Source: an uncultured Geobacteraceae bacterium (lineage in GTDB: Bacteria > Desulfobacterota > Desulfuromonadia > Geobacterales > Pseudopelobacteraceae). Taken from it: DNA of 33,334 bases. Positions 3,428 through 29,176 of this stretch are shown piece by piece. Location: the NCBI GenBank assembly GCA_903901875.1, contig CAIUSO010000099.1, positions 1 to 33,334 on the forward strand. Direction: 5' to 3'. Numbering within the stretch: the stretch's first letter is position 1; each line of letters starts with the position of its first letter. The translations under genes and the position numbers were made by a program. Under the pieces are notes generated by a model. The model worked only from the letters and a program-made list of their open reading frames with translations. It ran no database searches and was not told the DNA's origin.

Positions 3428-4204
3428 ATGAAAGTTGTAATCCTAGCCGGAGGATTCGGCACCCGCATCAGCGAAGAATCCCATCTGAAGCCCAAACCGA
3501 TGATAGAAATCGGCGAACGGCCAATCCTGTGGCATATCATGAAAATCTATTCAAGTTTTGGCTTTAATGATTTCGTCATCTGCCTCGGATATAAGGGGTA
3601 CTGCATCAAGGAATACTTTGCCCATTACTTTCTCCACGAATCGGACGTCACCTTTGACTTTAAAAATCAGAGTGAAAGGATGATCCATCATCATTCCGCC
3701 GAACCATGGACAGTCACTCTGGTAAATACAGGCATCGAGACGATGACGGGGGGGAGAGTCAAGCGTATCCGGGAGTATGTGGAAAATCAGCCGTTTATGC
3801 TCACCTATGGTGACGGCGTAGCAAACGTGAACATCGCCAATCTGGTCCGCTACCATGAGACCAACGGCAGGTTGGCCACTGTTACCTCTATTCAGCCAGC
3901 CGGTCGTTTTGGTGCGTTGGAACTTGATGAAAACAATCTCATACGGGGCTTCCAGGAGAAACCAAAGGGAGACGGAGCCTGGGTAAACGGCGGGTTCTTC
4001 GTCCTGCAACCAGAAGTATTCGACTATCTGGACGATGATACAACCGTGTTGGAAAAGGAGCCACTGGAACGTCTTGCCCGTGATGGTCAATTGATATCAT
4101 ACAAACACTCTGACTTCTGGCAGCCGATGGACACACTTCGTGACAAACTTTATCTGGAAGATTTATGGAAGAGCGGTTCCGCCCCGTGGAAAACATGGAA
4201 ATAA
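3428..4204 (+). CDS. rfbF: Glucose-1-phosphate cytidylyltransferase
   Basis: RfbF joins glucose-1-phosphate to CTP, giving CDP-D-glucose and pyrophosphate, the first step towards CDP-3,6-dideoxyhexoses. The 258-residue protein matches the usual length (about 257). It carries the nucleotidyltransferase signature GGFGTR at residues 8-13, the KPMIEIGERPILWHIM sugar/nucleotide-binding region at about 23-38, and a YGDGVANV metal-site segment near 130. The ATG at 3428 has a purine-rich GAAAGGGG stretch about 8 bases upstream. The stop overlaps the rfbG start by 10 bases. Together with rfbG and rfbH it forms a complete cytidylyl, dehydratase and 3-dehydrase set. Confidence 0.97.
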   Translation: MKVVILAGGFGTRISEESHLKPKPMIEIGERPILWHIMKIYSSFGFNDFVICLGYKGYCIKEYFAHYFLHESDVTFDFKNQSERMIHHHSAEPWTVTLVNTGIETMTGGRVKRIREYVENQPFMLTYGDGVANVNIANLVRYHETNGRLATVTSIQPAGRFGALELDENNLIRGFQEKPKGDGAWVNGGFFVLQPEVFDYLDDDTTVLEKEPLERLARDGQLISYKHSDFWQPMDTLRDKLYLEDLWKSGSAPWKTWK

Positions 4205-5274
4205 ATTTTTGGCATAACAGAAAAGTCTTTATCACCGGCCACACCGGCTTTAAAGGGAGCTGGCTCTGTATCTGGCTTACCCGCCTCGGTGCCCAGGTAA
4301 CCGGCTATGCCCTGGCTCCTCCGACCACTCCAAGCCTGTTTGAGCTTGCAGGGGTAAAGGATCATGTTGACTCCCGAATAGCCGATGTGCGGGACATGGA
4401 CCGACTGACCAGAACCATGTGCGAAGTCCAGCCGGAAATTGTTATCCACATGGCAGCGCAGCCACTCGTACGGGATTCCTACACCATTCCGGTGGAAACC
4501 TACGGGATAAACGTCATGGGGACGGTTCATCTGCTGGAGGCCGTCCGTGCCTGCCCGTCCGTACGAGCTGTGGTCAATGTCACCACCGACAAATGCTACG
4601 AAAACCGGGAATGGGTATGGGGCTATCGGGAAAACGACCCAATGGGGGGATTTGACCCCTACTCCAGCAGTAAAGGGTGCTCAGAGCTGGTGACGGCCGC
4701 CTACCGAAACTCTTTTTTCCGGGAATCAACAGTCTCAGTTGCAACGGCTCGGGCCGGCAATGTGATCGGTGGAGGGGACTGGGCAACGGACCGGCTCGTC
4801 CCGGATATTATCCGTTCACTGCTCGCCGGTAAGCCGGTCACCATACGCAACCCCTTGGCAATCCGCCCCTGGCAACACGTACTTGAACCCCTTTCCGGCT
4901 ACATGCTTCTGGCCCAACGGCTCCATGAACAGGGGAGCACATTTGCCGAAGGCTGGAACTTTGGACCCTCCGACGCAGATGCCAAGCCAGTGGAGTGGAT
5001 CGTGCAAAAGATATGTGACATCTGGGGTGGCAATGCCCGGTATGAACTGGATCAGGGAGAACACCCCCATGAAGCCCACTATCTGAAACTTGACTGTTCC
5101 AAAGCCCACAGCGGACTGGCATGGCAACCCCGCTGGGGCCTGGAAACGGCTCTGGAAAAGATTGTTACATGGGTGGATGTCTACCGGTCCGGTGGCAATC
5201 TTTATGATTGCTGCCGGGAACAAATTGCATCCTACCAAAACTGTTCACGAGGTGCGTGTGAAAAAGACTCTTGA
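4195..5274 (+). CDS. rfbG: CDP-glucose 4,6-dehydratase
   Basis: RfbG converts CDP-D-glucose to CDP-4-keto-6-deoxyglucose using bound NAD. I chose the ATG at 4195 ([15 protein letters not shown]) rather than the in-frame ATG at 4165. Starting at 4195 gives 359 residues, the classical RfbG length, and puts the Rossmann motif GHTGFKG at residues 15-21. The SDR catalytic pair YSSSK lies at 156-160, with the upstream TTDKCYEN segment providing the family's Thr/Asp/Glu-type catalytic region. The gene overlaps rfbF by 10 bases and, with the rfbH start proposed here, overlaps rfbH by 17 bases. All expected motifs are present. Confidence 0.97.
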
Positions 5275-6601
5275 AGAAGAACTTCGTAAAGAAGCAGTAA
5301 ATGCCGCCATTGCATATTATACGCAGGTTCACGCCCCCAAGGCGGATTTTGTACCAGGTGACCGCATCCCCTATGCCGGGAGGGTATTTGACCAGTCGGA
5401 AATTGCCAACCTGATTGACTCCTCCCTTGATTTCTGGTTGACCACTGGTCGATATTCCGATCGGTTTGAAAAAGAATTTTCCGGTTATCTCGGTGTTCAG
5501 CACTGCTCGCTGACCAACTCCGGCTCTTCGGCAAACCTGCTGGCCTTCATGGCATTAACCTCTCCGAAGCTCGGTGATCGAAGTATCCGGCGGGGAGATG
5601 AAGTGATTACCGTTGCAGCCGGTTTTCCAACCACAGTGGCACCGATTGTCCAATATGGAGCTGTTCCGGTCTTTGTGGATGTTTCGCTCCCCACCTATAA
5701 TATCGATGTTACACAACTGGAGGCGTCACTGTCCGACAAGACCAGGGCTGTCATGGTTGCCCATACACTCGGCAATCCCTTTGACCTTGCCGCCGTCAAA
5801 TCCTTCTGCGATAGACACCGTCTCTGGCTGATCGAAGACAATTGCGACGCACTCGGCTCCCGCTATCTCCATAATAACGTATGGAAATATACCGGCACCA
5901 TTGGCCACATCGGCACTTCAAGCTTCTATCCACCCCACCATATGACCATGGGAGAAGGTGGTGCCGTCTACACTGATGACACCCAACTGAAACGTCTGGT
6001 CGAGTCGTTCCGCGACTGGGGTCGTGACTGCTGGTGCCCGTCGGGGCGTGACAATACCTGTAATAACCGGTTCGGCCAGCAATTTGGCGAACTGCCGTTT
6101 GGCTATGACCATAAATATGTGTATTCACACTTTGGCTACAACCTGAAAGTCACTGACATGCAAGCGGCCATTGGCTGCGCCCAACTTGAGAAACTGCCTG
6201 CATTTATTGAATCCCGCAAAAAGAACTGGAAACTGTTGCGCGACGGTCTTGACGGACTTGAAGACAGATTTATCCTTCCCGAGGCAACTGAGAATTCTGA
6301 TCCTTCCTGGTTTGGTTTCCTGCTCACTGTCCGGGAGAATAGTGGTCTTACCCGGGAAAAGTTCGTGAATCATCTTGAGGGCAAAGGGATTCAGACCCGT
6401 ATGCTTTTTGCCGGAAACTTGATTAAGCATCCCTGTTTTGACGAGATGCGCCAGAAGGGGGAAGGCTATCGGTCCGTTGGCTCACTTGAAAATACCGACC
6501 GGATCATGCGGGATACATTTTGGGTGGGCGTTTATCCAGGGATGACCGATACGATGATAGAGCATATGATTTCCAGTATAAAAGACGCGATAAACCGATA
6601 G
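5258..6601 (+). CDS. rfbH: CDP-4-keto-6-deoxyglucose 3-dehydrase (E1), PMP and [2Fe-2S] enzyme
   Basis: RfbH removes the C3 hydroxyl of CDP-4-keto-6-deoxyglucose to give, after reduction, CDP-4-keto-3,6-dideoxyglucose. It has the aminotransferase fold, but the PLP-binding lysine is replaced by histidine: [15 protein letters not shown], with His227 at the lysine position, the hallmark of the E1 family. The [2Fe-2S] cysteines are present in DNCDALGS and in the DCWC...TC cluster. I chose GTG 5258 (VKKTLEEEL) because a GAGG sits 5 bases upstream and it gives 447 residues, near the usual 437; GTG 5252 is the alternative. The longer in-frame extension to 5090 lies inside rfbG and looks like chance coding. 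The partner reductase RfbI is not in this window. Confidence 0.96.
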
Positions 6602-6615
6602 GAGTTGAGACAACA

Positions 6616-7494
6616 ATGACTATCCTCCTTACCGGCGGCAGCGGCTTTATCGGCAAAAATATAATTGAGGCTCTTGGAGGGCGATACACCATACTCTCAC
6701 CAAGCAGTCAGGAACTCGACTTTTGTAATGAGGTTGAGGTAGCAAAATTCTTTAGTGCCCACTCTATTGAAACGGTCATTCATTCCGCCGTCAGACCTGG
6801 ACATCGAAATGCCAAAGACCCTTCAACGCAGCTTTATAACAATACACGTATGTTTTTCAATATCATACGCAACTCAGCACGATACCGGCGTCTCATCTCT
6901 ATTGGTTCCGGAGCAGTGTATGATATTCGTCAACCACTTATAAAAGTTCCCGAAGAATTTTTCGACCGGTATGTACCGGCAGACGAGCATGGCTTCTCAA
7001 AGTATATTATCGCCAAACATATGGAGAAGCTTGAAAATGCTGTAAAGCTTCGAATTTTCGGTATCTTCGGAAAATATGAGGATTACGCCATACGTTTTAT
7101 TTCCAATGCTATCTGCAAAACAATCTGCAATTTGCCAATAACGATCAGACAGAATCGGATGTTTGATTACCTTTTCGTTGATGACCTGATGCCGGTTATC
7201 GAACACTTTATCCACAACAAGGCCGAACAAAGCGCATATAACATCACTCCAAACAGTGCCGTTGATCTATATACTATTGCCCGCATAGTTCTGAGCTGTT
7301 CTGGAAAAGATCTGCCAATAGTCATTAAAGAGTCAGGAATGGGCCCCGAGTATAGCGGCTGCAATGAACGTTTGCGCCGGATATTCCCCTGTTTGGATCT
7401 TACTCCCCTTGACGAAGCTGTGCGGCGTCTGTATGAATGGTATGAAAATAATCGTGAGCACATTGATGTGGAGAAACTGCTGTTTGATAAATAA
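6616..7494 (+). CDS. NAD-dependent epimerase/dehydratase family protein, possible CDP-3,6-dideoxyhexose 4-reductase
   Basis: This is a 292-residue extended-SDR protein. The ATG at 6616 is preferred because it follows rfbH by 14 bases, places TGGSGFIG at residues 6-13, and has TAGGAG about 11 bases upstream. The reading frame also extends back into rfbH, but without motifs. The length is close to CDP-abequose and CDP-paratose synthases (RfbJ/RfbS, about 280-300), and its place straight after rfbH suggests it acts on the 4-keto group of CDP-4-keto-3,6-dideoxyglucose or a branched derivative. Oddly, the usual YGxSK catalytic tyrosine is histidine (HGFSK at 125-129), while a second YxxxK (YIIAK) starts at residue 130. 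The SDR fold is sure; the reaction is inferred. Confidence 0.85.
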   Translation: MTILLTGGSGFIGKNIIEALGGRYTILSPSSQELDFCNEVEVAKFFSAHSIETVIHSAVRPGHRNAKDPSTQLYNNTRMFFNIIRNSARYRRLISIGSGAVYDIRQPLIKVPEEFFDRYVPADEHGFSKYIIAKHMEKLENAVKLRIFGIFGKYEDYAIRFISNAICKTICNLPITIRQNRMFDYLFVDDLMPVIEHFIHNKAEQSAYNITPNSAVDLYTIARIVLSCSGKDLPIVIKESGMGPEYSGCNERLRRIFPCLDLTPLDEAVRRLYEWYENNREHIDVEKLLFDK

Positions 7495-7508: not shown

Positions 7509-9323
7509 TTGATCAAAGTCTCAGACTACGTTGTCAAACGGCTTGCTGAATATGGAATCCGCCACGCATTCATGATTACCGGTGGAGGAGCCATGCACCT
7601 TAACGACTCGTTTGGCACATCCGAATCAATCAAGTATATTTGTAATCACCATGAGCAGGCTTCGGCAATTGGTGCGGAAGGTTATGCCCGCGTTTCAGGT
7701 TCCTTGGCAGTTGTAGTTGTCACCTCAGGCCCGGGTGGAACCAACACCTTGACCGGAGTAATCGGACAGTGGCTTGATTCTGTGCCGGTGCTCTATCTCT
7801 CAGGCCAGGTCAAACAGGAAACGACAATCGAGTCCTGCCGTGAATTGGGGTTGCGCCAACTTGGTGATCAGGAGATAAACATCGTTGATATGGTCCGACC
7901 CGTGACCAAGTTTGCCGCCATCGTGCAAAAGGCCGATGAAATAGGCATGCTACTTGACGGAGCTCTGTTTATAGCAACCCATGGTCGTCCAGGCCCCGTA
8001 TGGCTTGATATACCACTTGATATTCAGGGAGCACTGATTGACGAGAGCAAGCTGTCAGCGTACTCCCCAAAAGACGACGGTATTGCTGTTCCGATCATTC
8101 TGTCACAGATTGACAAAATTGTTGGACTGTTGCAGAAAGCAAAACGCCCGGTTTTTTTAGCAGGCCAGGGGATCAGGATTGCCGATGCTCAGGAGACTTT
8201 TCTGAGCCTGGTAGAACGACTGCAGATTCCCGTCGTCAGTTCGTTTTCCGGAGTAGATCTTATCCCTTCTGACCACCCCCTGTTTATGGGGAGAATCGGG
8301 ACGCTCGGAAGCCGGCCAGGAAACTTTACACTCCAAAATGCGGATCTCCTTATTTCCGTGGGCTCTCGTAACAATATTCGTCAGGTAAGCTATAATTGGC
8401 AATCCTTTGCCCGCGAAGCAATCAAGGTAATTGTAGACATTGACCCTGCAGAACTCACTAAACCGACTCTTGTTCCTGACTTGGCAATTCATGCCGATGC
8501 AGGAGAGTTTCTCACCCTTTTGGATAAACAGATTAAGATCACGTCACTTCCTGAGTGGACTGGTTGGGTGGAGTGGTGTGGTGTACGCCGGGAAAAATAT
8601 CCCGTTGTTCTCGCCAAACACCGGGTTTCAGAAACCAATATAAACCCCTACCATTTTATTGATCGGTTATCAGCCGAACTGGCCTCTGATGCTATTGTTG
8701 TTGCAGGCAACGGCACCGCCTGTGTTGCCCTCTTTCAAGCGGGCAGAGTAAAGAAAGGACAGCGGTTTATCTGGAACTCAGGCTGTGCCTCAATGGGCTA
8801 CGACCTTCCAGCCGCCATAGGGGCTTGTTTTGCGGCAAAAGGTCACGATGTTGTCTGTCTTGCCGGTGACGGCAGTCTGCAGATGAATATTCAGGAGCTT
8901 CAGACCGTAGTCCATCACCAACTCCCACTCAAACTGTTTGTGCTGAGCAATAACGGCTATATCTCTATCAGGCAGACTCATCAGGCGTTCTTCGGCGGTC
9001 GCTTGACCGGCTGTGACCAGAGCAGCGGCGTCAGTTTTCCAGATATTTCTAAAATAGCAGCCGCCTACGGGCTGCCGGCCACAATAATCGACAGCCATGA
9101 TCTGCTTGATGAGAAAATAGCTGCCGTCCTGGCAACACCGGGGCCGGTTGTGTGTGATATCCGACTGCAACATGACTACATCTTTGAGCCAAAACTCTCT
9201 TCAGAGAAAAGGCCAGACGGTCGCATGGTCTCAAAACCGCTTGAAGACCTCTATCCATTTCTTGACCGAGATGAATTGAGAAGCAACCTTCTTATTCAGC
9301 CGTTGGACGAAGGCGATAAATAG
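7509..9323 (+). CDS. Thiamine-diphosphate-dependent acetolactate-synthase-like enzyme of an O-antigen locus
   Basis: This 604-residue protein has the three-domain layout of acetohydroxyacid synthases: an N-terminal Pyr domain (about 1-175) with the ThDP-activating glutamate in HHEQASAIGAEGYAR (Glu49), a central domain (about 195-335), and a C-terminal PP domain with the Mg/ThDP motif GDGS at 453-456 and NNG near 482. The start is TTG at 7509, supported by a GGGGGTG ribosome site just upstream. In sugar loci, relatives such as YerE use ThDP to add a two-carbon unit from pyruvate to C4 of CDP-4-keto-3,6-dideoxyglucose, making branched yersiniose-type sugars. RfbFGH directly upstream would supply that acceptor. 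Housekeeping acetolactate synthase is less likely: no small-subunit gene follows, and the setting is polysaccharide synthesis. The true substrate is unknown. Confidence 0.85.
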   Translation: MIKVSDYVVKRLAEYGIRHAFMITGGGAMHLNDSFGTSESIKYICNHHEQASAIGAEGYARVSGSLAVVVVTSGPGGTNTLTGVIGQWLDSVPVLYLSGQVKQETTIESCRELGLRQLGDQEINIVDMVRPVTKFAAIVQKADEIGMLLDGALFIATHGRPGPVWLDIPLDIQGALIDESKLSAYSPKDDGIAVPIILSQIDKIVGLLQKAKRPVFLAGQGIRIADAQETFLSLVERLQIPVVSSFSGVDLIPSDHPLFMGRIGTLGSRPGNFTLQNADLLISVGSRNNIRQVSYNWQSFAREAIKVIVDIDPAELTKPTLVPDLAIHADAGEFLTLLDKQIKITSLPEWTGWVEWCGVRREKYPVVLAKHRVSETNINPYHFIDRLSAELASDAIVVAGNGTACVALFQAGRVKKGQRFIWNSGCASMGYDLPAAIGACFAAKGHDVVCLAGDGSLQMNIQELQTVVHHQLPLKLFVLSNNGYISIRQTHQAFFGGRLTGCDQSSGVSFPDISKIAAAYGLPATIIDSHDLLDEKIAAVLATPGPVVCDIRLQHDYIFEPKLSSEKRPDGRMVSKPLEDLYPFLDRDELRSNLLIQPLDEGDK

Positions 9324-9344
9324 AACTATAAGGAGTACAAACCG

Positions 9345-10013
9345 GTGAATGGTCGAACGGCACTGATTACAGGAGCTGCAAGAGGTATTGGGTGCGCTAT
9401 TGCACATCTGTTTCAGGAGCAGGGAGCGATGGTACTGACTCCAAGTCGTAAAGAGCTAGATCTGTCGAGCAACGACTCTATTGACAGATATTGCACTCAG
9501 CTTACCCAAAAGGTTGATGTTATTGTAAACAACGCTGGCATTAATCCGTTGGGTGCGGCAGATGAATTCAACGATGCAGATCTGTCGGAAACCCTACAGA
9601 TCAACCTTGTAGCACCGATGCGATTGATACGGGCACTTTCCCCAGGCATGGCTCAACGTGGCTACGGTCGTATAGTAAATATCAGTTCTATCTGGAGCGG
9701 AGTGGCAAAACCTCGCCGCTTTGTCTATGCGACAACCAAAGCGGGTATAAATGGTATGACGCGAGCCTTGGCCGTTGAGTTAGCTGCATCCGGTGTATTA
9801 GTCAATGCGGTGGCCCCTGGTTATACAAATACAGAATTAACCCGACAGAATAATTCTGTTGAATCAATTCACCAGATTGCTGCTGCTATCCCTGCGGGCC
9901 GCCTGGCTGAACCGGAGGAGATTGCACAGGTAGTTGCCTTCCTCTGTTCGCAGAATAACAGCTATCTAACTGGACAGACTATCTTTGTGGATGGAGGTTA
10001 CACGTGTCAGTGA
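9345..10013 (+). CDS. Short-chain dehydrogenase/reductase
   Basis: This is a classical SDR of 222 residues. It has the cofactor motif TGAARGIG at about 9-16, NNAG near 66-69, the catalytic serine in NISSIWSG, the YATTK catalytic pair near 132-136, and the C-terminal [10 protein letters not shown] typical of FabG-like enzymes. The start is GTG at 9345, with AGGAG at 9331-9335. It lies 21 bases after the ThDP enzyme and overlaps the cyclase-like gene by 10 bases, so it probably reduces or oxidises a carbonyl/alcohol made within this four-gene block. It is somewhat shorter than FabG (about 245), mostly from a compact region after the first strand. The substrate cannot be read from the sequence. 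Confidence 0.88.
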
Positions 10014-11089
10014 TAACAATAAAATCCAATCTACGGAATTACACAGTGTATTTTCAGGAAACTGTCGAATTCATTAAAGGCTTTTCCCGGTTCCCCCATC
10101 GGCTTTTTGTTATTGATGAATCCGTCTGGCGACTTCACGGCAACGGTTGTCTCTCCACCATTTCAGAATCTGAACGAATGATTTTCCCCATCAGCGAGGA
10201 TCAAAAAAACCTCGACAGTGTCATGATAATATATGACCGCCTCATGGAGTCGTCTGCCAAGAAGAATATGACCATCATTTCCATCGGTGGAGGGATCACT
10301 CAGGACATCACCGGTTTTGTCGCCTCAACTCTCTATCGCGGACTCAACTGGGTGTTTGTACCCACTACTCTTCTTGCCCAGGCAGACAGTTGTATTGGTA
10401 GTAAAACATCTCTTAATTACAGGAGGTTCAAGAACTTGATAGGAACGTTTTACCCTCCGAGTGAAGTGCATATTTACCCCCCTTTTCTTCAGACACTCGC
10501 AACGAGTGATTTTCTAAGTGGTATGGGAGAAGTTGCCAAGCTTCATATCATGGGTGGTGCCGAAACGACATCCTCACTGTCTAATGCGCTACCGGCAATC
10601 CTGGAGAGAGATGAAGAAGCACTGTTATTGGCTATCCGGTGCTCACTTGAGGTGAAGTTGCAGTATATGGAGGGTGATGAATTCGATACCGGTCGACGTA
10701 ATCTGCTCAATTTCGGTCACTGTTTTGGTCATGCATTAGAGACAGTCTGCAACTATGCAATTCCGCATGGGCAGGCCGTCGTGATCGGTATTCTCGTGGC
10801 AAATCGTGTTGCAGTGATGCGTGGCTTGCTTTCTGCCAAGAACGACCAGCACATGGCGACACAACTGCTTGCATTACTGCCTGACTTCAAACAGGATCTC
10901 TCAAAATATTCAGCGACTGAATTGATAGCTGCGATGAAGCACGACAAAAAGCGGGTTGGTGAAGGTCTTGTGGTGGTTATGATTACCGATGCATTGACAC
11001 TGGTAAAAGCCGATGACGTAACAGCGGAAGAAATTGAAACAGCTATGTCAGGTTCATTTGCATCATATCCATTTCGAGGAGAATTATAA
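10004..11089 (+). CDS. 3-dehydroquinate synthase-like sugar-phosphate cyclase
   Basis: This 361-residue protein belongs to the dehydroquinate synthase superfamily, NAD- and Zn-dependent enzymes that cyclise sugar phosphates. The NAD-binding GGGITQD is at 95-101, and [14 protein letters not shown] and KNLIG follow. The metal ligands match Glu176 (SGMGEVAK), His239 ([11 protein letters not shown]) and His255 (PHGQ); the Lys/Arg/Asn active-site residues around RRNLLNFGH and the terminal HDKKRVGEG are also kept. The usual HGE after the third ligand is HGQ. GTG 10004 is preferred because TGGAGG lies about 6 bases upstream. The gene overlaps both neighbours, so it belongs to the polysaccharide operon rather than to an aro cluster. 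It may be a duplicate AroB or a cyclase with another substrate, as in EEVS or DOIS relatives. Confidence 0.87.
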
Positions 11090-12717
11090 TGCGTACTATA
11101 GAAATACTCGATTGCACGTTGCGAGATGGCGGATTTGTAAATGACTGGAATTTTGGTGCAGGTAGCATTGCAAATATAATAGGCAGGCTAGTCAAAGCAG
11201 GTATCGATATTATTGAAGTTGGTTTCATAGATGCGAGAAGATCCTATGACATTAATCGTTCAATATTCCCTGACACTGATTCCATAAAGCCCATTTTCAA
11301 TAACCTCGAAACGGACAACGCACTCATTCTGGGCATGATTGATTTCGGTACATGCCCCATTGAGGCGATAACCGAGCAACAGGACTCTGTGTTGGACGGA
11401 ATACGGGTAATATTTAAGAAACAACATTCCAGGGAGGCTCTTGAATTCTGTGCAGCAATAAAAAAGAAGGGATATAAAATTTTTGTAAACCCTGTATCGG
11501 TAACAAGCTATTCAGATACGGAGATGCTCAACCTTATAGCAACAATAAATGCATTGGCTCCGGACGGTGTCGCCATAGTTGATACGTATGGTCTTATGCA
11601 TAAACAGGAATTACTCCACTATTATTCGCTGTTAGACAAAAACCTGATTACCGGCATAAAAATTGGATATCACGCTCACAATAATTTTCAGCTTGCGTAC
11701 GCTAATTCTTTAGAACTTGTTGCACTTGATTCAGAAAGAGAGTTAATTATTGATACTTCTCTTTTCGGGATGGGAAAAAGTGCTGGTAATACCTGTACCG
11801 AGCTTGTTGCCATGCATCTTAATGAAAATTATGGTAAGTGCTACGATATGTATCAATTACTTGAAGCAATTGATGTTGACATTTCAAAGGAATATGCACG
11901 AAAGCAGTGGGGGTACACACTTAATCACTTTGTGGCAGCCTCAAATGACTGTCATCCTGATTACGTATCTGCCCTGATTGGCAAGAGAACACTGTCTGTA
12001 AAAGCGGTCAACGAGATCCTTGCCAGAATAGAGCCTCCCGCCAAACTGACATTTAGCAAAGCTCTGATTGAAAATCTGTATTTGGAATATCAAAATAAAT
12101 ACATTGATGATTCCGGAGCATATGTGGCTCTTGCTCGTCAGTTAATAAGCAGAAAAATACTGATCATTGCCCCGGGAAGATCTATAGAGACCGACAAGAC
12201 ACATATTCAAGACTTCATACATGAAAATGAACCTGCCGTTATCACCATTAATTTTATTGACGAGAACTACAAGCCCGATTATGTTTTTATGGGAAATTCA
12301 AAAAGATACAGCCAATTTTACAATAAAATATATATGGGTGAATGTAGCGCAAAGGTTATTTGTACTTCAAATATAGCTGAGTCAAATAGAAAAATTGACT
12401 ACATTTTCAATTTTAATTCCTTGATTAGCGAAGACGACGTTATCCGAGATAATCCCGTTTTGATGCTCCTCAATTTATTAACTAATATGAAAATTAATAC
12501 CGTTTTTCTCGCGGGGTTTGACGGATACACAAACGACAACATGAAAAATTACCCCGAAGAATATATTCCGTTTCTCTACTGCAATGACCAGGTTATACTG
12601 CGCAATGAAGCGATAAGAAAGGCAATCAGAAGCTTGGATAATAAAATCAGCCTGAAGCCATTAACATCATCGTTTTATTTTTCACCTTTAGTATCATCGG
12701 AGTACGCCCCCCAATGA
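11089..12717 (+). CDS. Two-domain DRE-TIM (HMGL-like) aldolase with a C-terminal MptE/DUF115-like domain
   Basis: Residues 1 to about 300 form an HMGL-like TIM barrel. LDCTLRDGGF at 7-16 supplies the metal-binding Asp and catalytic Arg, HAHNN at 195-199 gives the two His ligands, and GMGKSAGNTCTE near 228-239 is the second signature, closest to 4-hydroxy-2-oxovalerate aldolase. Such enzymes make or break C-C bonds next to a 2-oxo acid. Residues about 345-542 form a separate domain starting KILIIAPGRSIE, resembling MptE/DUF115-like Rossmann domains found near polysaccharide genes; its role is unknown. The gene overlaps the cyclase by 1 base and the next glycosyltransferase by 4. It is clearly more AT-rich than its neighbours (for example 17 G/C in bases 12301-12360), suggesting separate acquisition. 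The substrate is unknown. Confidence 0.82.
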   Translation: MRTIEILDCTLRDGGFVNDWNFGAGSIANIIGRLVKAGIDIIEVGFIDARRSYDINRSIFPDTDSIKPIFNNLETDNALILGMIDFGTCPIEAITEQQDSVLDGIRVIFKKQHSREALEFCAAIKKKGYKIFVNPVSVTSYSDTEMLNLIATINALAPDGVAIVDTYGLMHKQELLHYYSLLDKNLITGIKIGYHAHNNFQLAYANSLELVALDSERELIIDTSLFGMGKSAGNTCTELVAMHLNENYGKCYDMYQLLEAIDVDISKEYARKQWGYTLNHFVAASNDCHPDYVSALIGKRTLSVKAVNEILARIEPPAKLTFSKALIENLYLEYQNKYIDDSGAYVALARQLISRKILIIAPGRSIETDKTHIQDFIHENEPAVITINFIDENYKPDYVFMGNSKRYSQFYNKIYMGECSAKVICTSNIAESNRKIDYIFNFNSLISEDDVIRDNPVLMLLNLLTNMKINTVFLAGFDGYTNDNMKNYPEEYIPFLYCNDQVILRNEAIRKAIRSLDNKISLKPLTSSFYFSPLVSSEYAPQ

Positions 12718-13475
12718 ATCATCCGCCCCTTGTGACGATTATCACCGTAGTCCGTAATGATGCTGCAAGCCTGTTGCGCACCATACAGAGTATCGTTCCG
12801 TTTAAAAATTCCCGTTTCGAGTATGTTGTTGTTGACGGAGCCTCAACAGATGAAACTCTTCAGGTGGCAGAATCACACCGCGACCTGATTGATATTCTTG
12901 TCAGTGAACCGGACAAAGGGATCTACGATGCCATGAATAAAGGGATCAAGCTTGCCCATGGCACCTATCTGCTGTTCCTCAATGCCGGTGATGAGCTGCT
13001 CGTCTCTCCCGATAACATCGTTGCTGCCGCTCCCGAAAAAAGTGTCATTGTCTACGCAAAGGCAAAAATGTTCAATCCGGACGGCTCTTTTGACTACATC
13101 AAGGGAAAACGCCTCAAAAACATCAGACGTTTTTTACAGGGGATGCCACTCTGCCATCAGGCAATCTTCTACCGACGGGAGCTGATCGGAGAATATGACC
13201 TTGGCTTCAAGGTGATAAGTGACCGGGTACTGACGTACAATTTGCTCCGCACCTACGGACGAAGGCGCGCTTTTTTTGTGGACAGCGTTATGGTAAATTA
13301 TTATCAGGACGGTTTCAGTTGCAACGGCGTTTCCGATGCCTTTCTCGCCGAGGAGGATGCCCGCTTTTATCGGAGTGTGGGTAAAGCCTATTACATCAAG
13401 ATTAAAATCATTAACTACCATTTCAAACACAAAATTAAACGTCCTTTCCTGCGACTGTTTGGCAGGAAGTTCTAG
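12714..13475 (+). CDS. Family 2 glycosyltransferase, WcaE-like
   Basis: This 253-residue GT-A enzyme has PLVTIITVVRNDAASLLRTI at the N-terminus, the nucleotide-binding VVVDGASTDET near residues 38-48, and the GIYDAMNKG segment characteristic of the colanic-acid WcaE-type GT2 subgroup. FLNAGDELL stands where other GT2 enzymes have DxD. It would add one sugar to the growing cytoplasmic saccharide. The C-terminal 25 residues are rich in Lys, Arg and aromatics, suggesting peripheral membrane binding. It overlaps the aldolase-like gene by 4 bases (ATGA), but its base composition returns to that of the flanking LPS genes. The donor and acceptor are not readable. Confidence 0.88.
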   Translation: MNHPPLVTIITVVRNDAASLLRTIQSIVPFKNSRFEYVVVDGASTDETLQVAESHRDLIDILVSEPDKGIYDAMNKGIKLAHGTYLLFLNAGDELLVSPDNIVAAAPEKSVIVYAKAKMFNPDGSFDYIKGKRLKNIRRFLQGMPLCHQAIFYRRELIGEYDLGFKVISDRVLTYNLLRTYGRRRAFFVDSVMVNYYQDGFSCNGVSDAFLAEEDARFYRSVGKAYYIKIKIINYHFKHKIKRPFLRLFGRKF

Positions 13476-14272: not shown

Positions 14273-15284
14273 AAACATTATCATCAGCCGCACCGACGGT
14301 ATCGGTGACGTTATCCTCACCCTGCCGGTGGCCGGTTTATTGAAGAAAGTCTATCCCAATGTCACCATCTGGTTTATTGGCCGCTCCTATACCGCTCCGG
14401 TCATTGCTGCCTGTGAGCATGTGGATGAATTTATTAATCGTGATAATCTGGAACCCATGACTGAACGCCAGCAGGTTGATCTGCTGCAGCAATCACTGGC
14501 CGATGCCATTGTCCACGTTTTTCCCGACAAATTCATTGCACGGTTGGCAAAACGTTCCGGCATCCCGATTCGGATCGGCACATCCCACCGTTTCCACCAC
14601 TGGTTCACCTGTAACAAGCTCGTCCATGAAGGGCGCAAACGCTCCCCCTTGCATGAGGCAGAGCTGAATGTCAGGCTGCTCCGCCCCCTTGGCATTCAAC
14701 CTCCGGTGTCACGGGCAGAACTGGTGCCCTTAACAGGGCTGACCCGCCCCGAACCGCTGGAACCGCAGTACGAGGCGTTGCTGGATCCCCACCGTTTCAA
14801 TCTCATCCTCCATCCGACATCAAAGGGGAGTGCCCGTGAGTGGGGAGTTAACAACTACAGTGAACTGATTCAGCTTCTCCCGCAGGAACGGTATAAGGTG
14901 TTTGTCTCCGGCAGTGCTGAAGAAGGGGCACGCCTGCTTCAGCATCCCAAGCTCTGGCAGCACGGGGCCACCAACATCACCGGTGCCATGCCCCTTGACC
15001 AGTTCATCGCCTTTATTGCCAGGGCCGACGGGCTGATTGCCGCCAGCACCGGTCCCCTCCATATTGCGGCGGCTCTTGGCAAGGTTGCCCTCGGAATCTA
15101 TGCCCCCATGCGCCCCATTCATCCGGGCCGCTGGTGCCCTCTGGGACCACGGGCGGGATTTCTTGTGCGGGACAAGCAGTGCCAGCTCTGCCGTCACGAT
15201 AACCACTGTGCCTGCATGGAAAGCATTACACCGGTCGAGGTTTGTGCCCGACTGGAACAATTGATCGTAACAGACGGGAAATAA
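14265..15284 (+). CDS. Family 9 glycosyltransferase (ADP-heptose:LPS heptosyltransferase-like)
   Basis: This 339-residue GT-B enzyme begins MLKNIIISRTDGIGDVILTLPV, the typical N-terminus of WaaC/WaaF/WaaQ enzymes, which add L-glycero-D-manno-heptose from ADP-heptose to the inner core. The donor-binding half has LILHPTSKGSAREW near residue 184 and the signature AASTGPLHIAAALG near 260, followed by GIYAPMRPIHPGRW. The ATG at 14265 is chosen over the upstream in-frame ATG at 14184 because GT9 proteins start at this strand and AAAAGGG lies just upstream. A Cys/His-rich segment, CQLCRHDNHCAC, near residue 300 is typical of many heptosyltransferases. It is placed between the WaaE-like and GT4 genes, supporting core assembly. 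The specific heptose position is unknown. Confidence 0.9.
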   Translation: MLKNIIISRTDGIGDVILTLPVAGLLKKVYPNVTIWFIGRSYTAPVIAACEHVDEFINRDNLEPMTERQQVDLLQQSLADAIVHVFPDKFIARLAKRSGIPIRIGTSHRFHHWFTCNKLVHEGRKRSPLHEAELNVRLLRPLGIQPPVSRAELVPLTGLTRPEPLEPQYEALLDPHRFNLILHPTSKGSAREWGVNNYSELIQLLPQERYKVFVSGSAEEGARLLQHPKLWQHGATNITGAMPLDQFIAFIARADGLIAASTGPLHIAAALGKVALGIYAPMRPIHPGRWCPLGPRAGFLVRDKQCQLCRHDNHCACMESITPVEVCARLEQLIVTDGK

Positions 15285-15289
15285 TACCA

Positions 15290-17134
15290 ATGGCACTCAG
15301 GATACTGCACGTTCTGTCATCTAATTTTTTTGCCGGTTCGGTGGCCTACGCTCTGCAGCTTGCCGAACGCCAGCGAGCCGACGGCCATCTGGTGGTCATG
15401 GCCACCGACCAGACCGGTCTTTCCGACTCATGTGACTGCCTGCCTCTCCCGGTATCCGACCGTTCACTATTACAACGCTTTCGTAATATTCGCCGTCTTC
15501 GCAGCATTATCCGCGACTACGACATAGGTGTCGTTCACGCCCACTCACGGGCAGCAAGCTGGATCTGCCACTACGCCCTTCGCGGCACCAGAGTGCCCCT
15601 TATCTCAACGATCCATGGCCGCCAGGTAAAGCATTCACGCTTGAAATCAAATGACATTTACGGTGAAAAGGTCATTGCCATCTGCCCCGAACTGGTTGAA
15701 CAGCTGGCCACCGACTTGAAAATGGAGCGAAGCAAACTACATTGTCTGCCCAATCCCCTAGATTTTGAGCATCTGGAACCGTACCGCACAACCGGTGTCC
15801 GCAACAGCGGACCGCCGATCATTTCCGTTGTCGGAAGATTCAACGGCCCCAAAGGTGCCCATATTGCTGAATTGGTGGCTGAAGTATTCCCCGGCCTGCT
15901 GCATCAGCACCCCGATCTCTCGATCAGGCTTATTGGCGGGGAGTGGGAGTCATTCCCTGCGAAAGGAAAGGAAGCCTTCGATTCACTGCGGTCCCGCTTT
16001 GGGGAACGCATCAGCTATCGGGGCTTCACCCGGCAGGTACTACCGCTCATAGCCGAATCAACCATTGTGATCGGTGCCGGACGGGTCGCCATGGAGGCAC
16101 TGGCCCTCGGCTGCACCCTGTTTGCCCTCGGTGAAGCCTGCTGCCACGGAATTATCACCAGAGAAAATCTTGAGGCCGCCATCGGCAGCAATTTCGGGGA
16201 TATTCGTCGGGAGGCTGCTTCGTTCCACCCCGATTGCGGAGCAATCAACCGTGAACTGGTGAACTGTCTGAACGGAGCAGCACTTGGGGAGATTGACCGG
16301 CAAAAACTGGTACAAGTCTACGATATGGCCCACATCATGCCGCAGATCATAGCCATTTACGGTGCCGCACTCATGGGAAAACTCTCCCCGTCTCCCATTC
16401 CGGTACTGATGTACCACCGGGTACCCGATACCCCGATTGACACAAAGCACCGCACCTTTGTCACAAAACAGAACTTCGAAAAGCACCTGATTTTTTTTGC
16501 CCGGCGCGGCCTGCAGGCCATTACATTTCAAGACTATCTGGCCTTTGCCACCGGCACAAGGCCCCCCCAGAAATTTCCCCGGAAGCCATTCATCCTTACC
16601 TTCGATGACGGCTACGCGGACAATTTCACCAACGCGCTCCCTCTCACCCGGGCCTATGGTTTCCGGGGGGTACTGTTCCTGCTGGGTGACTTTACGGCAA
16701 AGGGGAATTTTTGGGATCGTGGGGAAGATGTTGAGGCAAACCGCCTCATGACGTCGGAGCAGAAAAAGGCATTCGTGGCCGCTGGGTGGGAGATTGGTGC
16801 CCACACCATGACCCATCCCCACCTGACCCAGATACCCGATGAAGAGCTCCGGTATGAGTTGTGCGAGAGCAGGCGAAAGCTGGAAGAAGAGCTGGAGACC
16901 AGCGTCATCTCGTGTGCCTACCCGTTTGGCACCCATGATGAACGGGTCAGGAGCTGTATTAAAGAGTGCGGTTTTACCTTCGGAATTGCCACCGATACGG
17001 GGGGAACGGTCATTGAGGACGACCGCTTTGCCATTTTTCGGGTTAACATGTTTCCCGAGGAGAGCTTCTTCAGTCTCTACAAAAAAACCTCTTCCTGGTA
17101 TCGCGCCTATTACCGACGCAAACGGGGAAAGTAG
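15290..17134 (+). CDS. Fused family 4 glycosyltransferase and polysaccharide deacetylase (NodB/CE4)
   Basis: This is a single 614-residue frame starting at ATG 15290, six bases after the GT9 stop. Residues 1 to about 360 form a GT-B fold: RILHVLSSNFFAGSVAY at the start, VVGRFNGPKGAHIAELV near 180, and the donor-binding AGRVAMEALALG segment near 265. Residues about 370-614 form a NodB-type deacetylase: PVLMYHRV, the TFDDGYADN motif with Asp439/Asp440, and HTMTHPHL with zinc ligands His505 and His509, then a SCAYPFGTHDE segment. The fusion suggests that an N-acetylated sugar is transferred and then de-N-acetylated on the same lipid-linked glycan, leaving a free amine, but this is inferred. There is no signal peptide, so it acts in the cytoplasm. 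It ends the plus-strand LPS run. Confidence 0.9.
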   Translation: MALRILHVLSSNFFAGSVAYALQLAERQRADGHLVVMATDQTGLSDSCDCLPLPVSDRSLLQRFRNIRRLRSIIRDYDIGVVHAHSRAASWICHYALRGTRVPLISTIHGRQVKHSRLKSNDIYGEKVIAICPELVEQLATDLKMERSKLHCLPNPLDFEHLEPYRTTGVRNSGPPIISVVGRFNGPKGAHIAELVAEVFPGLLHQHPDLSIRLIGGEWESFPAKGKEAFDSLRSRFGERISYRGFTRQVLPLIAESTIVIGAGRVAMEALALGCTLFALGEACCHGIITRENLEAAIGSNFGDIRREAASFHPDCGAINRELVNCLNGAALGEIDRQKLVQVYDMAHIMPQIIAIYGAALMGKLSPSPIPVLMYHRVPDTPIDTKHRTFVTKQNFEKHLIFFARRGLQAITFQDYLAFATGTRPPQKFPRKPFILTFDDGYADNFTNALPLTRAYGFRGVLFLLGDFTAKGNFWDRGEDVEANRLMTSEQKKAFVAAGWEIGAHTMTHPHLTQIPDEELRYELCESRRKLEEELETSVISCAYPFGTHDERVRSCIKECGFTFGIATDTGGTVIEDDRFAIFRVNMFPEESFFSLYKKTSSWYRAYYRRKRGK

Positions 17135-24557: not shown

Positions 24558-25127
24558 ATGGCTAAAGAACTTTACGTCGGACATATTTCTGAACAGGCAA
24601 CGGAACAGGATCTTCGCAAACTTTTTGAGGTTATGGGGGTTGTCACTTCGGTCCACCTGATTGTTGACCAGGATTCCGGGGAGTTCAAGCGCTGCGGCTA
24701 TGTGCGGATGCTGTCCGAAGTGGACCTGAACGAGGTGGTGGAAACCCTGGACGGCACCTGGCTGATCGACCGCTGCATCGTCGTGAGCATCGCCAAACCG
24801 CAGAAAGATCGCCCGGCAAAAACACCCTATATCAAGAGAAGGCAGCTGGCACCACGTCCGGCAGCGGCAGACGGTGCCCCTTCATCAGGTGGTAAGCGTC
24901 CGGTGGCGGAAAAAAAGAGTAAAACACCCCGTCCGGCACAAAAGGAAGCGGGACAAACCGGCCGCTCCTCTGCAGCCAAAGAGGCCACCGCAAAACGAAG
25001 ACCGGCAGCCCCACCGGAGAGCCCGAAGAAAGGGCGCCCGGGCCCCTCGGCCCCACGCTCTGCCCGTCCGGCCGGCACCACTCCCGGCAGAACCGGCAGT
25101 CGCCCCTCCAGCAGAGGGCGTGGCTGA
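24558..25127 (+). CDS. RNA-recognition-motif protein with a basic Pro/Ala/Lys-rich tail
   Basis: This is a 189-residue protein. Residues 1-80 form one RRM: RNP2 is LYVGHI at 5-10 and RNP1 is KRCGYVRM near 47-54, both with the aromatic residues needed to stack on RNA. Residues about 85-189 are low complexity, rich in Pro, Ala, Lys, Arg and Ser, and look disordered and strongly positively charged. Bacterial single-RRM proteins with such tails are common in cyanobacteria and several Geobacter-like bacteria; some bind mRNA or act in cold response. The ribosome site AAGGAA lies before the ATG. The stop overlaps the next start by 1 base. The RNA target is unknown. Confidence 0.92.
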   Translation: MAKELYVGHISEQATEQDLRKLFEVMGVVTSVHLIVDQDSGEFKRCGYVRMLSEVDLNEVVETLDGTWLIDRCIVVSIAKPQKDRPAKTPYIKRRQLAPRPAAADGAPSSGGKRPVAEKKSKTPRPAQKEAGQTGRSSAAKEATAKRRPAAPPESPKKGRPGPSAPRSARPAGTTPGRTGSRPSSRGRG

Positions 25128-25603
25128 TGAAAGCCGTTCTCCGTGCCCTGTTATTTTTCACCCTGTACGGAATCGGCTCCAGCGTATCTTTTGCCGCCGA
25201 CACAGCATCACTCCCCCGGGGGTACGAAAAGTGGCCAAAGAGCAGGGCGCGGATCATCACCGACAAGAATTCGCTTTTTTATGGCATCCATTATATTTAT
25301 GTGGAAAACAACACCTTGAAAACCTACCGAAACGGCGGCGCGTATCCCCAAGGGAGCCGCTTTGTGGTGGAAAACTTCGCCATTCGGGACGGCGGGGGGA
25401 AGCCGGTCGAGGGGAAAAAGAGCATGATTGTCATGATGCGAAAGGATCGGAAACAGCAGGCAACCGGCGGTTGGCTCTTTGCGGGCTTCACCCCGGAGGG
25501 AAAGCCCGCAGGAATTGACCCCCGCCAGAACTGCTTTGAATGCCATCAGAAAGATACCGGAGCAACCGATCTGGTCATCTCAAAATTTGCCGACTTCCGG
25601 TAA
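25127..25603 (+). CDS. Cytochrome P460-family periplasmic c-haem protein
   Basis: This 158-residue protein has an N-terminal signal peptide (MKAVLRALLFFTLYGIGS..., cut probably after AFA-like SFAA near residue 23-24) and one c-haem site, CFECH at 136-140, close to the C-terminus. The small size, the WPKSRARIITDKNS segment and the C-terminal haem motif followed by TDLVISKFADFR fit the cytochrome P460/cytochrome c'-beta fold, whose members bind NO or hydroxylamine, or act in electron transfer. The cross-linking Lys of true P460 cannot be confirmed here. It is translationally coupled to the RRM gene by a 1-base overlap, an odd pairing without obvious functional sense. It is convergent with the methyltransferase gene. 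Confidence 0.85.
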   Translation: MKAVLRALLFFTLYGIGSSVSFAADTASLPRGYEKWPKSRARIITDKNSLFYGIHYIYVENNTLKTYRNGGAYPQGSRFVVENFAIRDGGGKPVEGKKSMIVMMRKDRKQQATGGWLFAGFTPEGKPAGIDPRQNCFECHQKDTGATDLVISKFADFR

Positions 25604-27751: not shown

Positions 27752-27816
27752 AACATGGAAATTCAGATGGATAGTGTGATATATAGTGTCGAATACCTAT
27801 TAATTTGGAGCATCCC

Positions 27817-29175
27817 GTGAAAATCTGTATTTTTGGTGCCGGTTATGTTGGTCTGGTGGCAGCCGCTTGCTTTGCTGAGAGTGGTAACAGTGTCATAACG
27901 GTTGATATTGACCGGTCCCGCATAGACAACCTGACCAAGGGAATCATCCCTATCTACGAACCGGGACTCAAGGAGATGATCCTCCGTAACCAGGCCGAGG
28001 GACGGCTCACCTTTACTCTGGACAAGGAAACGGCCATCCGGTCTTCCCTGGTCTGCTTTATCGCCGTCGGAACACCTCCGGGGGAAGACGGCTCGGCCGA
28101 CCTCAAATATGTGCTGGGCGTGGCCCGTGACATTGGCCGGGCCATGGACGGCTACAAAATAGTTGTCGACAAATCAACGGTTCCGGTCGGTACCGCCGAT
28201 AAAGTTCGTGCCGCCATTGGCGAAGAGCTCTCCAACAGATCCGTCGATTTCGAGTATGACGTGGTTTCCAACCCGGAATTTCTGAAGGAAGGGGCCGCCA
28301 TTGAAGACTTCATGAAGCCGGACCGGGTGGTTATCGGCTGCGACAACGTTCGTACCGCCGAGATCATGAAAGAGCTGTACGACCCCTTTATGCGCAAGCA
28401 GAACCGAATGATCGTCATGGATATCCGAAGCGCAGAAATGACCAAATATGCCGCCAACGCCATGTTGGCTACCCGCATCTCCTTCATGAACCAGATCGCC
28501 GGACTCTGTGAGCGGATGGGTGCCGATGTCATGGCGGTTCGTGAAGGCATCGGCTCCGACTCCCGCATCGGCTACGACTTCCTCTTCCCCGGTCCCGGCT
28601 ACGGCGGCTCCTGTTTCCCCAAAGATGTGAAAGCCCTCATCAAAACCGCCGAAGAGGCTCACTATGACTTCCTGCTGCTCAAATCGGTGGAAGAGGTCAA
28701 CGAACTGCAAAAAGAGGTGCTGGCCGACAAGCTCATCAAGAAGTTGGGTACCCCCGATGAAGAACAGCCCCTCACCGGTCGCATCATCGCCTGCTGGGGA
28801 CTGGCATTCAAACCGCGTACCGACGACATGCGTGAAGCTCCGGCCCTCACCATCATCGAGCGGCTTCTCTCCGCCGGTGCCACCGTCCGGGCCCACGACC
28901 CGGAGGCACTCAAGGAGGCACAACACCATTTCGGTGACCGCATCGAGTACAGCACCAACCAGTACGCCATCCTGGATGGTGCCGACGCCCTGGCAATCAT
29001 CACCGACTGGAACGAATACCGCAACCCGGATTTCGACCGCATCAAGGGGGCCCTCCGCTCTCCACTGATCGTTGATGGGCGCAACCTGTACAAACCTGAC
29101 CGTATGGCGGCCGCTGGTTTCGACTACGCCCCCCTGGGTCGCAGCAGCAGCGGCGTCTCTGGAGGAGTCAAATAA
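27817..29175 (+). CDS. ugd: UDP-glucose 6-dehydrogenase
   Basis: Ugd oxidises UDP-glucose twice with NAD to UDP-glucuronate. I prefer GTG 27817 ([12 protein letters not shown]) because TTTGGAG lies 6 bases upstream and it gives 452 residues, the usual length; the in-frame TTG at 27805 would be inside that ribosome site. The NAD motif GAGYVG is at 7-12. [20 protein letters not shown] (starting near residue 151) matches the family core, and the catalytic cysteine is Cys266 in [10 protein letters not shown]. It is followed by uxs with one base between stop and start, so UDP-glucuronate is probably passed to UDP-xylose synthesis. Confidence 0.97.
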
Positions 29176-29176
29176 C

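Follow-up and report, generated by a model that had tools for sequence, protein, structure and literature searches.

The stretch of DNA analysed here, hereafter the window, comprises the 33,334 nucleotides of contig CAIUSO010000099.1 (assembly GCA_903901875.1) from an uncultured Geobacteraceae bacterium; it starts at contig base 1, so the record holds nothing upstream of it. Four consecutive plus-strand genes in the window (Table 1) encode a thiamine diphosphate (ThDP)-dependent carboligase, a short-chain dehydrogenase (SDR), a dehydroquinate synthase (DHQS)-like enzyme (CYC) and a DRE-TIM aldolase (ALD). All four reading frames are intact, and they are joined, just as the initial annotation had described, by a gap of 21 bases between the ThDP enzyme and SDR genes and by overlaps of 10 bases between SDR and CYC and of 1 base between CYC and ALD. 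Comparison with other genomes showed a conserved set, interchangeable aldolases, a link to the sugar gene rfbH and a DHQS-type active site in CYC; as judged from sequence, the set is a conserved and widespread extension of the YerE/ErwE-type branched-sugar pathways. Our literature searches found no paper describing this enzyme set.

Recurrence of the gene set

When 84,980 species genomes were scanned with a CYC alignment, 177 relatives were found, and the best 80 of these were kept and split by CYC similarity and gene neighbours into group I (50 loci) and group II (30 loci). A ThDP enzyme was counted at 40% or more identity to the window protein and rfbH at 44% or more. Among the group I loci, 48/50 contain an SDR gene, 47/50 an aldolase gene, 43/50 a ThDP enzyme gene and 27/50 rfbH, the last being present in 20 of the 27 loci with at least 9.5 kb of upstream sequence. 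All four functions (CYC, SDR, YerE-type ThDP enzyme and aldolase) occur together in 41/50 loci, and these 41 bear 19 phylum-level labels; in every one of them the ThDP enzyme and CYC genes share a strand, and the order ThDP enzyme-aldolase-SDR-CYC is found in 26. In 77 of the 80 loci overall, CYC is immediately preceded by the SDR gene in the same orientation. Group I extends over Geobacteraceae, Chlorobiaceae, Chloroflexi, Nitrosomonadaceae, Nitrospira, Omnitrophota, Elusimicrobia, Patescibacteria, a Micrarchaeota bin and others. The initial annotation, which would have given up its proposal had the four genes not been found together elsewhere, was thus borne out on the level of function and on linkage to rfbH, while the exact families of the window are rare as a combination (2/80 loci plus the window), the aldolase usually being HpaI-like.

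The seven group I loci that lack a ThDP enzyme gene comprise six on contigs of 3-12 kb and one further locus (L016), which by our reading of its translation carries a transketolase-like gene. Whole-genome searches detected the ThDP enzyme in 4/4 group I versus 0/3 group II genomes, and RfbH in all but one (L039) of the 12 group I genomes searched, the window's among them, versus 0/14 control genomes. An apparent absence of rfbH from Geobacter AOG1, seen in a 20-kb view, was discarded, as rfbFGH lies in the same cluster with the end of rfbH about 7 kb before the ThDP enzyme gene. Within the genus, 3/39 genomes have CYC, a patchiness that fits a variable surface-sugar locus.

Two loci from Campylobacterota (L046 and L047) were counted in group II, although their CYC lies inside the group I clade, because their neighbours are of the group II type; given this mixture, the SDR-CYC pair seems to be mobile between two pathways. 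Bins of a Micrarchaeota archaeon and of Patescibacteria (L051, L053, L054, L055 and L063) also contain the cassette or parts of it.

The ThDP enzyme and the aldolase slot

The window ThDP enzyme matches three thiamine pyrophosphate (TPP) domains in Pfam, and its best solved relative is 8rph (452 bits; next PDB chain, 294 bits), which we take to be the YerE-like enzyme JanthE. The initial assignment to the YerE type therefore holds, and the CDG motif of 8rph is consistent with the account of JanthE in passages of PMC12247030. The window protein has E49 as the catalytic glutamate and the ThDP motif GDG...N as G453-D454-G455 and N481; E49 and N481 are kept in 37/37 and D454 in 36/37 of the CYC-linked ThDP enzyme sequences. 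Assignment as a biosynthetic acetolactate synthase (TIGR00118) was rejected at 379 bits against a cut-off of 538. Together with the supply of a deoxy-keto sugar encoded next to it (rfbF, rfbG and rfbH, all over cut-off), these features identify a predicted YerE-like enzyme that would carry out carboligation to a ketone acceptor. The cytidine diphosphate (CDP)-4-keto-3,6-dideoxyglucose acceptor and a YerE-like ThDP enzyme are common to this locus and to the YerE, ErwE and JanthE systems of yersiniose A and erwiniose, from which it differs by the added CYC and SDR and by an aldolase that is swapped among three families; the main text of the review of those systems does not mention a cyclase or dehydroquinate (PMC12247030).

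The aldolase position is filled in group I by three unrelated families, namely HpaI-like proteins (HPCL, PF03328) in 38/50 loci, NeuB-like proteins (NEUBL, PF03102) in 7/50 and ALD (PF00682) in 2/50, with none found in 3/50, and two of these families never share one locus. Even loci whose CYC is closest to that of the window differ in this respect, with ALD in L010 and L013 and HPCL in L011, L012, L014 and L015. The best-known members of all three families join pyruvate or phosphoenolpyruvate (PEP) to an aldehyde, yielding 3-deoxy- (4-hydroxy-) 2-oxo acids, and this non-homologous replacement appears to be the strongest clue to the role of the slot. ALD itself was dismissed as the conserved partner, its family being present at only 2/80 CYC loci plus the window. 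The HPCL model has a predicted local distance difference test score (pLDDT) of 94, and its structural matches at PDB ranks 1-24 are HpcH/HpaI-type (class II pyruvate) aldolases or SbnG (template modelling (TM) scores of about 0.52-0.55), SbnG, presumably akin to the HpaI-type aldolases, standing at ranks 10 and 20. HPCL residues E113 and D142, invariant in 27/27 sequences, are read as metal ligands. Five group I loci (L024, L033, L039, L040 and L045) have two adjacent HPCL matches each, some of which may be true tandem paralogues.

ALD is nearest to 3dxi_A and the 4-hydroxy-2-oxovalerate aldolases (HOA, DmpG/BphI), with which it shares the DRE-TIM domain and the R-D and HxH motifs of the metal/pyruvate site; R12, D13, H195 and H197 are invariant across 10 aligned sequences, the window included. 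It reaches 73.6 bits against TIGR03217, below the cut-off of 286, and differs from those enzymes by having Phe rather than His after RDG-x, by an additional C-terminal domain and by the absence of a detectable DmpG communication domain. The earlier statement that key residues are intact is accordingly correct for the four enzymes with the one exception of this Phe16. The C-terminal domain (about 215 amino acids) matches nothing in Pfam, in two distant relatives an MptE-like match falls below cut-off, and in the predicted structure (mean pLDDT 73) its fold stayed unnamed. Since the GC content of ALD is 0.385, versus 0.457-0.502 for CYC, SDR and the ThDP enzyme gene, ALD may have been acquired separately from the other three. 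A search of plasmids with the ThDP enzyme gave no match at 1e-100. Separately, a Desulfobaculum plasmid (NZ_CP090010.1, L103) was seen to carry rfbF, rfbG, rfbH, a split transketolase and a 337-residue ALD-like aldolase, which looks like another combination following the same logic as the window set.

ThDP enzyme loci devoid of CYC offer a further view of the aldolase. Searching 395 genomes of the home phylum with the ThDP enzyme gave 19 at E ≤1e-110, two of which have CYC. In the 18 CYC-less home-phylum loci examined, an aldolase-like gene stands at the ThDP enzyme gene or one gene from it in 11 (six of these at 24-29% identity) and rfbH is present in 12, counting as a miss one 3.2-kb contig (L129) that gave no recognised gene; CYC is found in 0/18. 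A survey of a second phylum matched 24 of 346 genomes, 18 of them at 34-36% identity, and six of its loci were examined, so that CYC-less loci overall have an aldolase by the ThDP enzyme in 11/24. A TIGR04425 search of nine CYC-less genomes returned nothing over cut-off (best 287 bits). Because aldolases adjoin the ThDP enzyme even where CYC is missing, the keto acid transferred by the ThDP enzyme to the CDP-4-keto-3,6-dideoxyhexose probably comes from the aldolase. One locus is instructive in this regard: in L058 (1792-3724), a second ThDP enzyme gene, lying beside a full CYC cassette, is directly preceded by genes for acetaldehyde dehydrogenase and 4-hydroxy-2-oxovalerate aldolase that exceed their NCBIfam cut-offs, which suggests two branched-sugar routes side by side. 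This gene pair matches the 4-hydroxy-2-oxo acids that ErwE uses as donors, according to passages of PMC12247030. Pyruvate, the substrate that the initial annotation had in mind for the ThDP enzyme, may thus not be the donor, as both L058 and the 11/24 CYC-less loci argue for a longer 4-hydroxy-2-oxo acid.

A tree of ThDP enzymes (FastTree, several weak branches) covered 37 CYC-linked and 17 CYC-less sequences; 11 of the latter stand apart and six fall among the CYC-linked ones, and the CYC-SDR pair therefore looks like an add-on to ThDP enzyme loci that was gained or lost more than once. In L131 (4395-10028), with the order ThDP enzyme-HPCL-HAD hydrolase-NDR-family 2 glycosyltransferase (NDR being the NAD-dependent epimerase/reductase), a hydrolase over the HAD-IIA cut-off occupies the place that SDR-CYC has in its relatives. 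HAD-motif genes occur near the ThDP enzyme in 5/21 CYC-less versus 0/40 CYC-bearing loci (p 0.0034, post hoc), a count that covers 21 of the 24 CYC-less loci (L129, L159 and L180 left out).

The DHQS-like enzyme CYC and the proposed route

The best-scoring family for CYC is TIGR04425, an AroB-related putative sugar phosphate phospholyase (cyclizing) whose function, going by its name, is only putative; the score of 398.3 bits is 1.7 bits short of the cut-off of 400, and a group II relative scores 472.8. A role as the shikimate gene was rejected, as CYC scores 268 bits against the aroB model TIGR01357 (cut-off 305) and the genome carries a separate AroB-like gene. Thirteen DHQS positions (R112, D128, K134, K143, N144, E176, K179, K218, R232, N236, H239, H243 and H255), which we take, in A. 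nidulans numbering, to be the catalytic, metal, phosphate and carboxylate/substrate residues of DHQS, are kept in 51/51 group I sequences, the window included. K218 and R232, presumably the carboxylate pair, are also kept in 30/30 group II sequences. CYC thus shares with AroB the family and these residues, but it falls below the aroB cut-off, sits in a sugar locus and forms a separate clade (99 in the SH-like approximate likelihood ratio test (SH-aLRT), in a tree made by a quick method, the careful tree search being unfinished). Moreover, Q100 (51/51 group I, 29/30 group II) is replaced in AroB by Gly in 4/5 and Cys in 1/5 sequences, and S136 (51/51 and 30/30) by Gly in 3/5 and Ala in 2/5; both residues are specific to the family, and CYC is accordingly not just another AroB.

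C7-cyclitol synthases (EEVS, DDGS and kin) are, we assume, marked by loss of the Lys/Arg pair. Four non-DHQS cyclases were compared, comprising two annotated sedoheptulose 7-phosphate cyclases, a Nostoc-cluster cyclase that looks like the mycosporine type and an Ebo-cluster enzyme. The K218 equivalent, the N236 equivalent and the DKK motif are absent from 4/4 and H243 from 3/4, and at the K218 and R232 columns these sequences (L147, L148, L149 and L151) have M/M/M/H and E/K/D/A, respectively. CYC was hence not assigned to the sedoheptulose-phosphate cyclase type, given that K218, N236 and DKK are all present. The retention of the 13 positions points to a substrate like 3-deoxy-arabino-heptulosonate 7-phosphate (DAHP), with a carboxylate next to the ketone and a phosphate, and suggests that CYC acts on a free keto-acid phosphate, i.e. 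on the aldolase product itself.

Group II loci present the CYC-SDR pair in other company. They lack the ThDP enzyme (0/30) and rfbH (0/30), and none of HPCL, NEUBL and ALD passes the thresholds used for group I. CTP-transferase-like genes are found in 23/30 (16/17 among loci of at least 14 kb), HpaI- or NeuB-like aldolases in 13/30 (11/17 of those same larger loci) and a GmhA-like isomerase in 20/30. The CTP-transferase-like genes of L072, L076 and L078 all pass a KdsB-family NCBIfam cut-off, and that of L046 matches PseF below cut-off. With such neighbours, the group II CYC-SDR pair, too, seems to yield a 3-deoxy-2-keto acid whose C2 is left intact.

We tentatively propose that the window genes build a long-chain C-branched 3,6-dideoxyhexose of the caryophyllose type for a surface polysaccharide, a reading that we consider quite possible, if short of probable. 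RfbFGH, which are established families, would supply CDP-4-keto-3,6-dideoxyglucose. ALD, or the HpaI- or NeuB-like proteins of its relatives, would join pyruvate or PEP to an aldose phosphate such as a tetrose 4-phosphate, giving a DAHP-like 3-deoxy-2-keto acid with a phosphate at its terminus. In what is the most speculative step, CYC would carry out oxidation, phosphate elimination and reduction on that acid to leave a methyl ketone and no ring, and SDR would reduce the methyl ketone to a CH3-ended 3-deoxy-2-keto acid. By analogy with YerE and ErwE, the ThDP enzyme would then decarboxylate this acid and place the acyl chain on C4 of the CDP-keto sugar, and NDR, a candidate reductase, would reduce the branch ketone. 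The NDR match recurs at 35% or more identity in 19/50 group I loci, and a homologue 62% identical to it lies immediately upstream of the ThDP enzyme gene in L007 (G287). A methyl ketone is favoured over a ring because transfer by the ThDP enzyme and activation with cytidine monophosphate (CMP) both need the C2 keto acid, and ring closure would destroy the C2 keto group.

The branch that such a route would give has the shape of that in caryophyllose of the Mycobacterium marinum lipooligosaccharide (LOS; MMAR_2332), a 4-C-branched 3,6-dideoxyhexose with a 2'-deoxy, CH3-terminated branch of six carbons, as given in passages of PMC5706390. As this branch is 1,3,4,5-tetrahydroxyhexyl (passages of PMC5706390), its donor would be a C7 acid with the DAHP skeleton ending in CH3. 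The main texts of the mycobacterial LOS papers nowhere mention an aldolase, nor dehydroquinate wherever that term was looked for, nor, in one of them, a synthase; in the bradyrhizose paper, as far as its searched portions go, no term asked for other than gene cluster was matched. A bolder version, which we hold to be possible but less likely than not, is that a DHQS relative became a deoxygenating enzyme that frees an open-chain methyl ketone, and that the aldolase, this lyase and SDR form a portable module for CH3-ended acids with two outlets, which would be transfer by the ThDP enzyme onto CDP-keto sugars in group I and activation with CMP in group II. If true, this version would reveal a so far unrecognised way to deoxy sugars and supply a missing step towards caryophyllose-type sugars.

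Several points weigh against the proposed route. To our knowledge, every known sugar-phosphate cyclase closes a ring, so that a non-cyclising member would be without precedent; the last steps of DHQS can run spontaneously, and the complete DHQS site would make ring closure the default expectation for CYC. Nor is the comparison with the non-DHQS cyclases clean for the arginine, since all four carry an Arg one column past R232. Phe16 of ALD stands where three 4-hydroxy-2-oxovalerate aldolases have the His of RDG-x-H, which is presumably catalytic, and this leaves the acceptor and mechanism of ALD uncertain. The link to rfbH is incomplete too, as rfbH was not found in 7 of the 27 group I loci for which 9.5 kb or more of upstream sequence is available; the whole-genome search recovered RfbH for three of these (L013, L034 and L042) and not for L039, the other three (L017, L053 and L054) lying outside that search. 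In the six second-phylum CYC-less loci, rfbH is present in 5/6, CYC in 0/6 and a recognised aldolase in 0/6, and the ThDP enzyme clusters L132, L176 and L177 likewise have rfbH without a recognised aldolase; where the ThDP enzyme and rfbH occur by themselves, the cluster may be one of the pyruvate (yersiniose) type. The HAD contrast was drawn post hoc with three loci left out, and L131 alone is clear, while the KdsB-like genes of group II could be ordinary genes for 3-deoxy-manno-octulosonate (Kdo). We know of no activity or sugar structure for any of these loci.

Other roles for CYC were considered as well. The nearest to the initial annotation, which had raised the idea of a branched or carbocyclic sugar, is that CYC acts after the ThDP enzyme, closing a phosphate-bearing branch on the CDP-sugar onto the branch ketone to give a carbocyclic branch whose ring ketone SDR then reduces. 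Known members of the CYC superfamily do close rings, the attached chain R-CO-CH2-(CHOH)n-CH2-OP would be laid out like DAHP with its carboxylate replaced by R, and CYC-SDR accompanies the ThDP enzyme in 43/50 group I loci. We nevertheless regard it as unlikely: with a sugar where DHQS has the carboxylate, K218 and R232 would be needless, yet both are kept in 51/51 group I and 30/30 group II sequences, and in group II CYC-SDR occurs with no ThDP enzyme (present in 0/30 loci and 0/3 genomes). Of the earlier idea, the recurrence of the set and its tie to rfbH stand, but the carbocycle is one option only: CYC has a DHQS-type site, and the genes around it in groups I and II alike point to survival of the C2 keto acid. 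Less probable again is a division into two arms, in which ALD, CYC and SDR make a quinate-like free carbocyclic acid that decorates the polysaccharide, and the ThDP enzyme and NDR make a yersiniose-like sugar from pyruvate. Such an arrangement would suit the DHQS-like active site and the parallel of aldolase, CYC and SDR to DAHP synthase, DHQ synthase and a quinate-type reductase, as well as the clusters that have rfbH without a recognised aldolase. A preference of YerE for pyruvate, stated in passages of PMC12247030, also speaks for it. On the other hand, no acid-activating gene was recognised in the families common to at least four group I loci (unlabelled families being judged on one sequence each), the aldolases adjoin the ThDP enzyme in 11/24 loci where CYC is absent, and in group I the ThDP enzyme is missing only from the six loci on 3-12 kb contigs and L016.

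It has also been considered that CYC makes a cyclic ketone which is itself the acceptor of the ThDP enzyme, the product being a C-branched cyclitol and not a branched hexose. JanthE does take cyclic ketones such as beta-tetralone, as passages of PMC12247030 report, but the linkage to rfbFGH (rfbH in 27/50) provides a better-known ketone acceptor and rfbH persists in 12/18 CYC-less home-phylum clusters, which makes the cyclitol very improbable. Finally, an ordinary yersiniose-type locus with unrelated metabolic genes beside it by chance is hardly credible; O-antigen loci are often shuffled and CYC is present in just 3/39 genomes of the genus, but the set turns up under 19 phylum-level labels, its genes sharing a strand and, for the most part (26/41), their order.

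Neighbouring genes in the window

The four genes belong to a wider co-directional unit, with rfbF, rfbG, rfbH and NDR upstream and a glycosyltransferase gene downstream (Table 1). NDR ends 14 bases before the start of the ThDP enzyme gene, and the glycosyltransferase gene overlaps ALD by 4 bases. The frame of rfbH is open from 5090, the NF011936 match begins at frame residue 60, and the true start is probably downstream of 5090.

Table 1. Genes of the co-directional unit in the window, in order of position
Gene	Product	Position	Strand	Family or domain	Length and start
rfbF	glucose-1-phosphate cytidylyltransferase	3428..4204	+	TIGR02623, 428.5 bits (cut-off 300)	
rfbG	CDP-glucose 4,6-dehydratase	4165..5274	+	TIGR02622, 508 bits (cut-off 278)	
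rfbH	CDP-4-keto-6-deoxyglucose 3-dehydrase	5090..6601	+	NF011936, 748.7 bits (cut-off 423)	
NDR	NAD-dependent epimerase/reductase	6616..7494	+	PF01370	from first ATG
ThDP enzyme	YerE/JanthE-like carboligase	7509..9323	+	PF02775/02776/00205	604 aa, TTG
SDR	classical short-chain dehydrogenase	9345..10013	+	PF13561	222 aa, GTG
CYC	dehydroquinate-synthase-like sugar-acid phosphate lyase/cyclase	10004..11089	+	PF01761+PF24621	361 aa, GTG
ALD	DRE-TIM (HMGL-like) aldolase	11089..12717	+	PF00682	542 aa, ATG
	glycosyltransferase family 2	12714..13475	+	PF00535	

Elsewhere in the window, a single frame of 630 amino acids (15242-17134) combines a glycosyltransferase family 4 domain with a polysaccharide deacetylase domain, and a gene of the UDP-glucose dehydrogenase family is followed by an overlapping epimerase-family frame (27805-30112) as a further sugar-nucleotide pair. 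A cytochrome P460 family gene (25127-25603) lies amid housekeeping genes.

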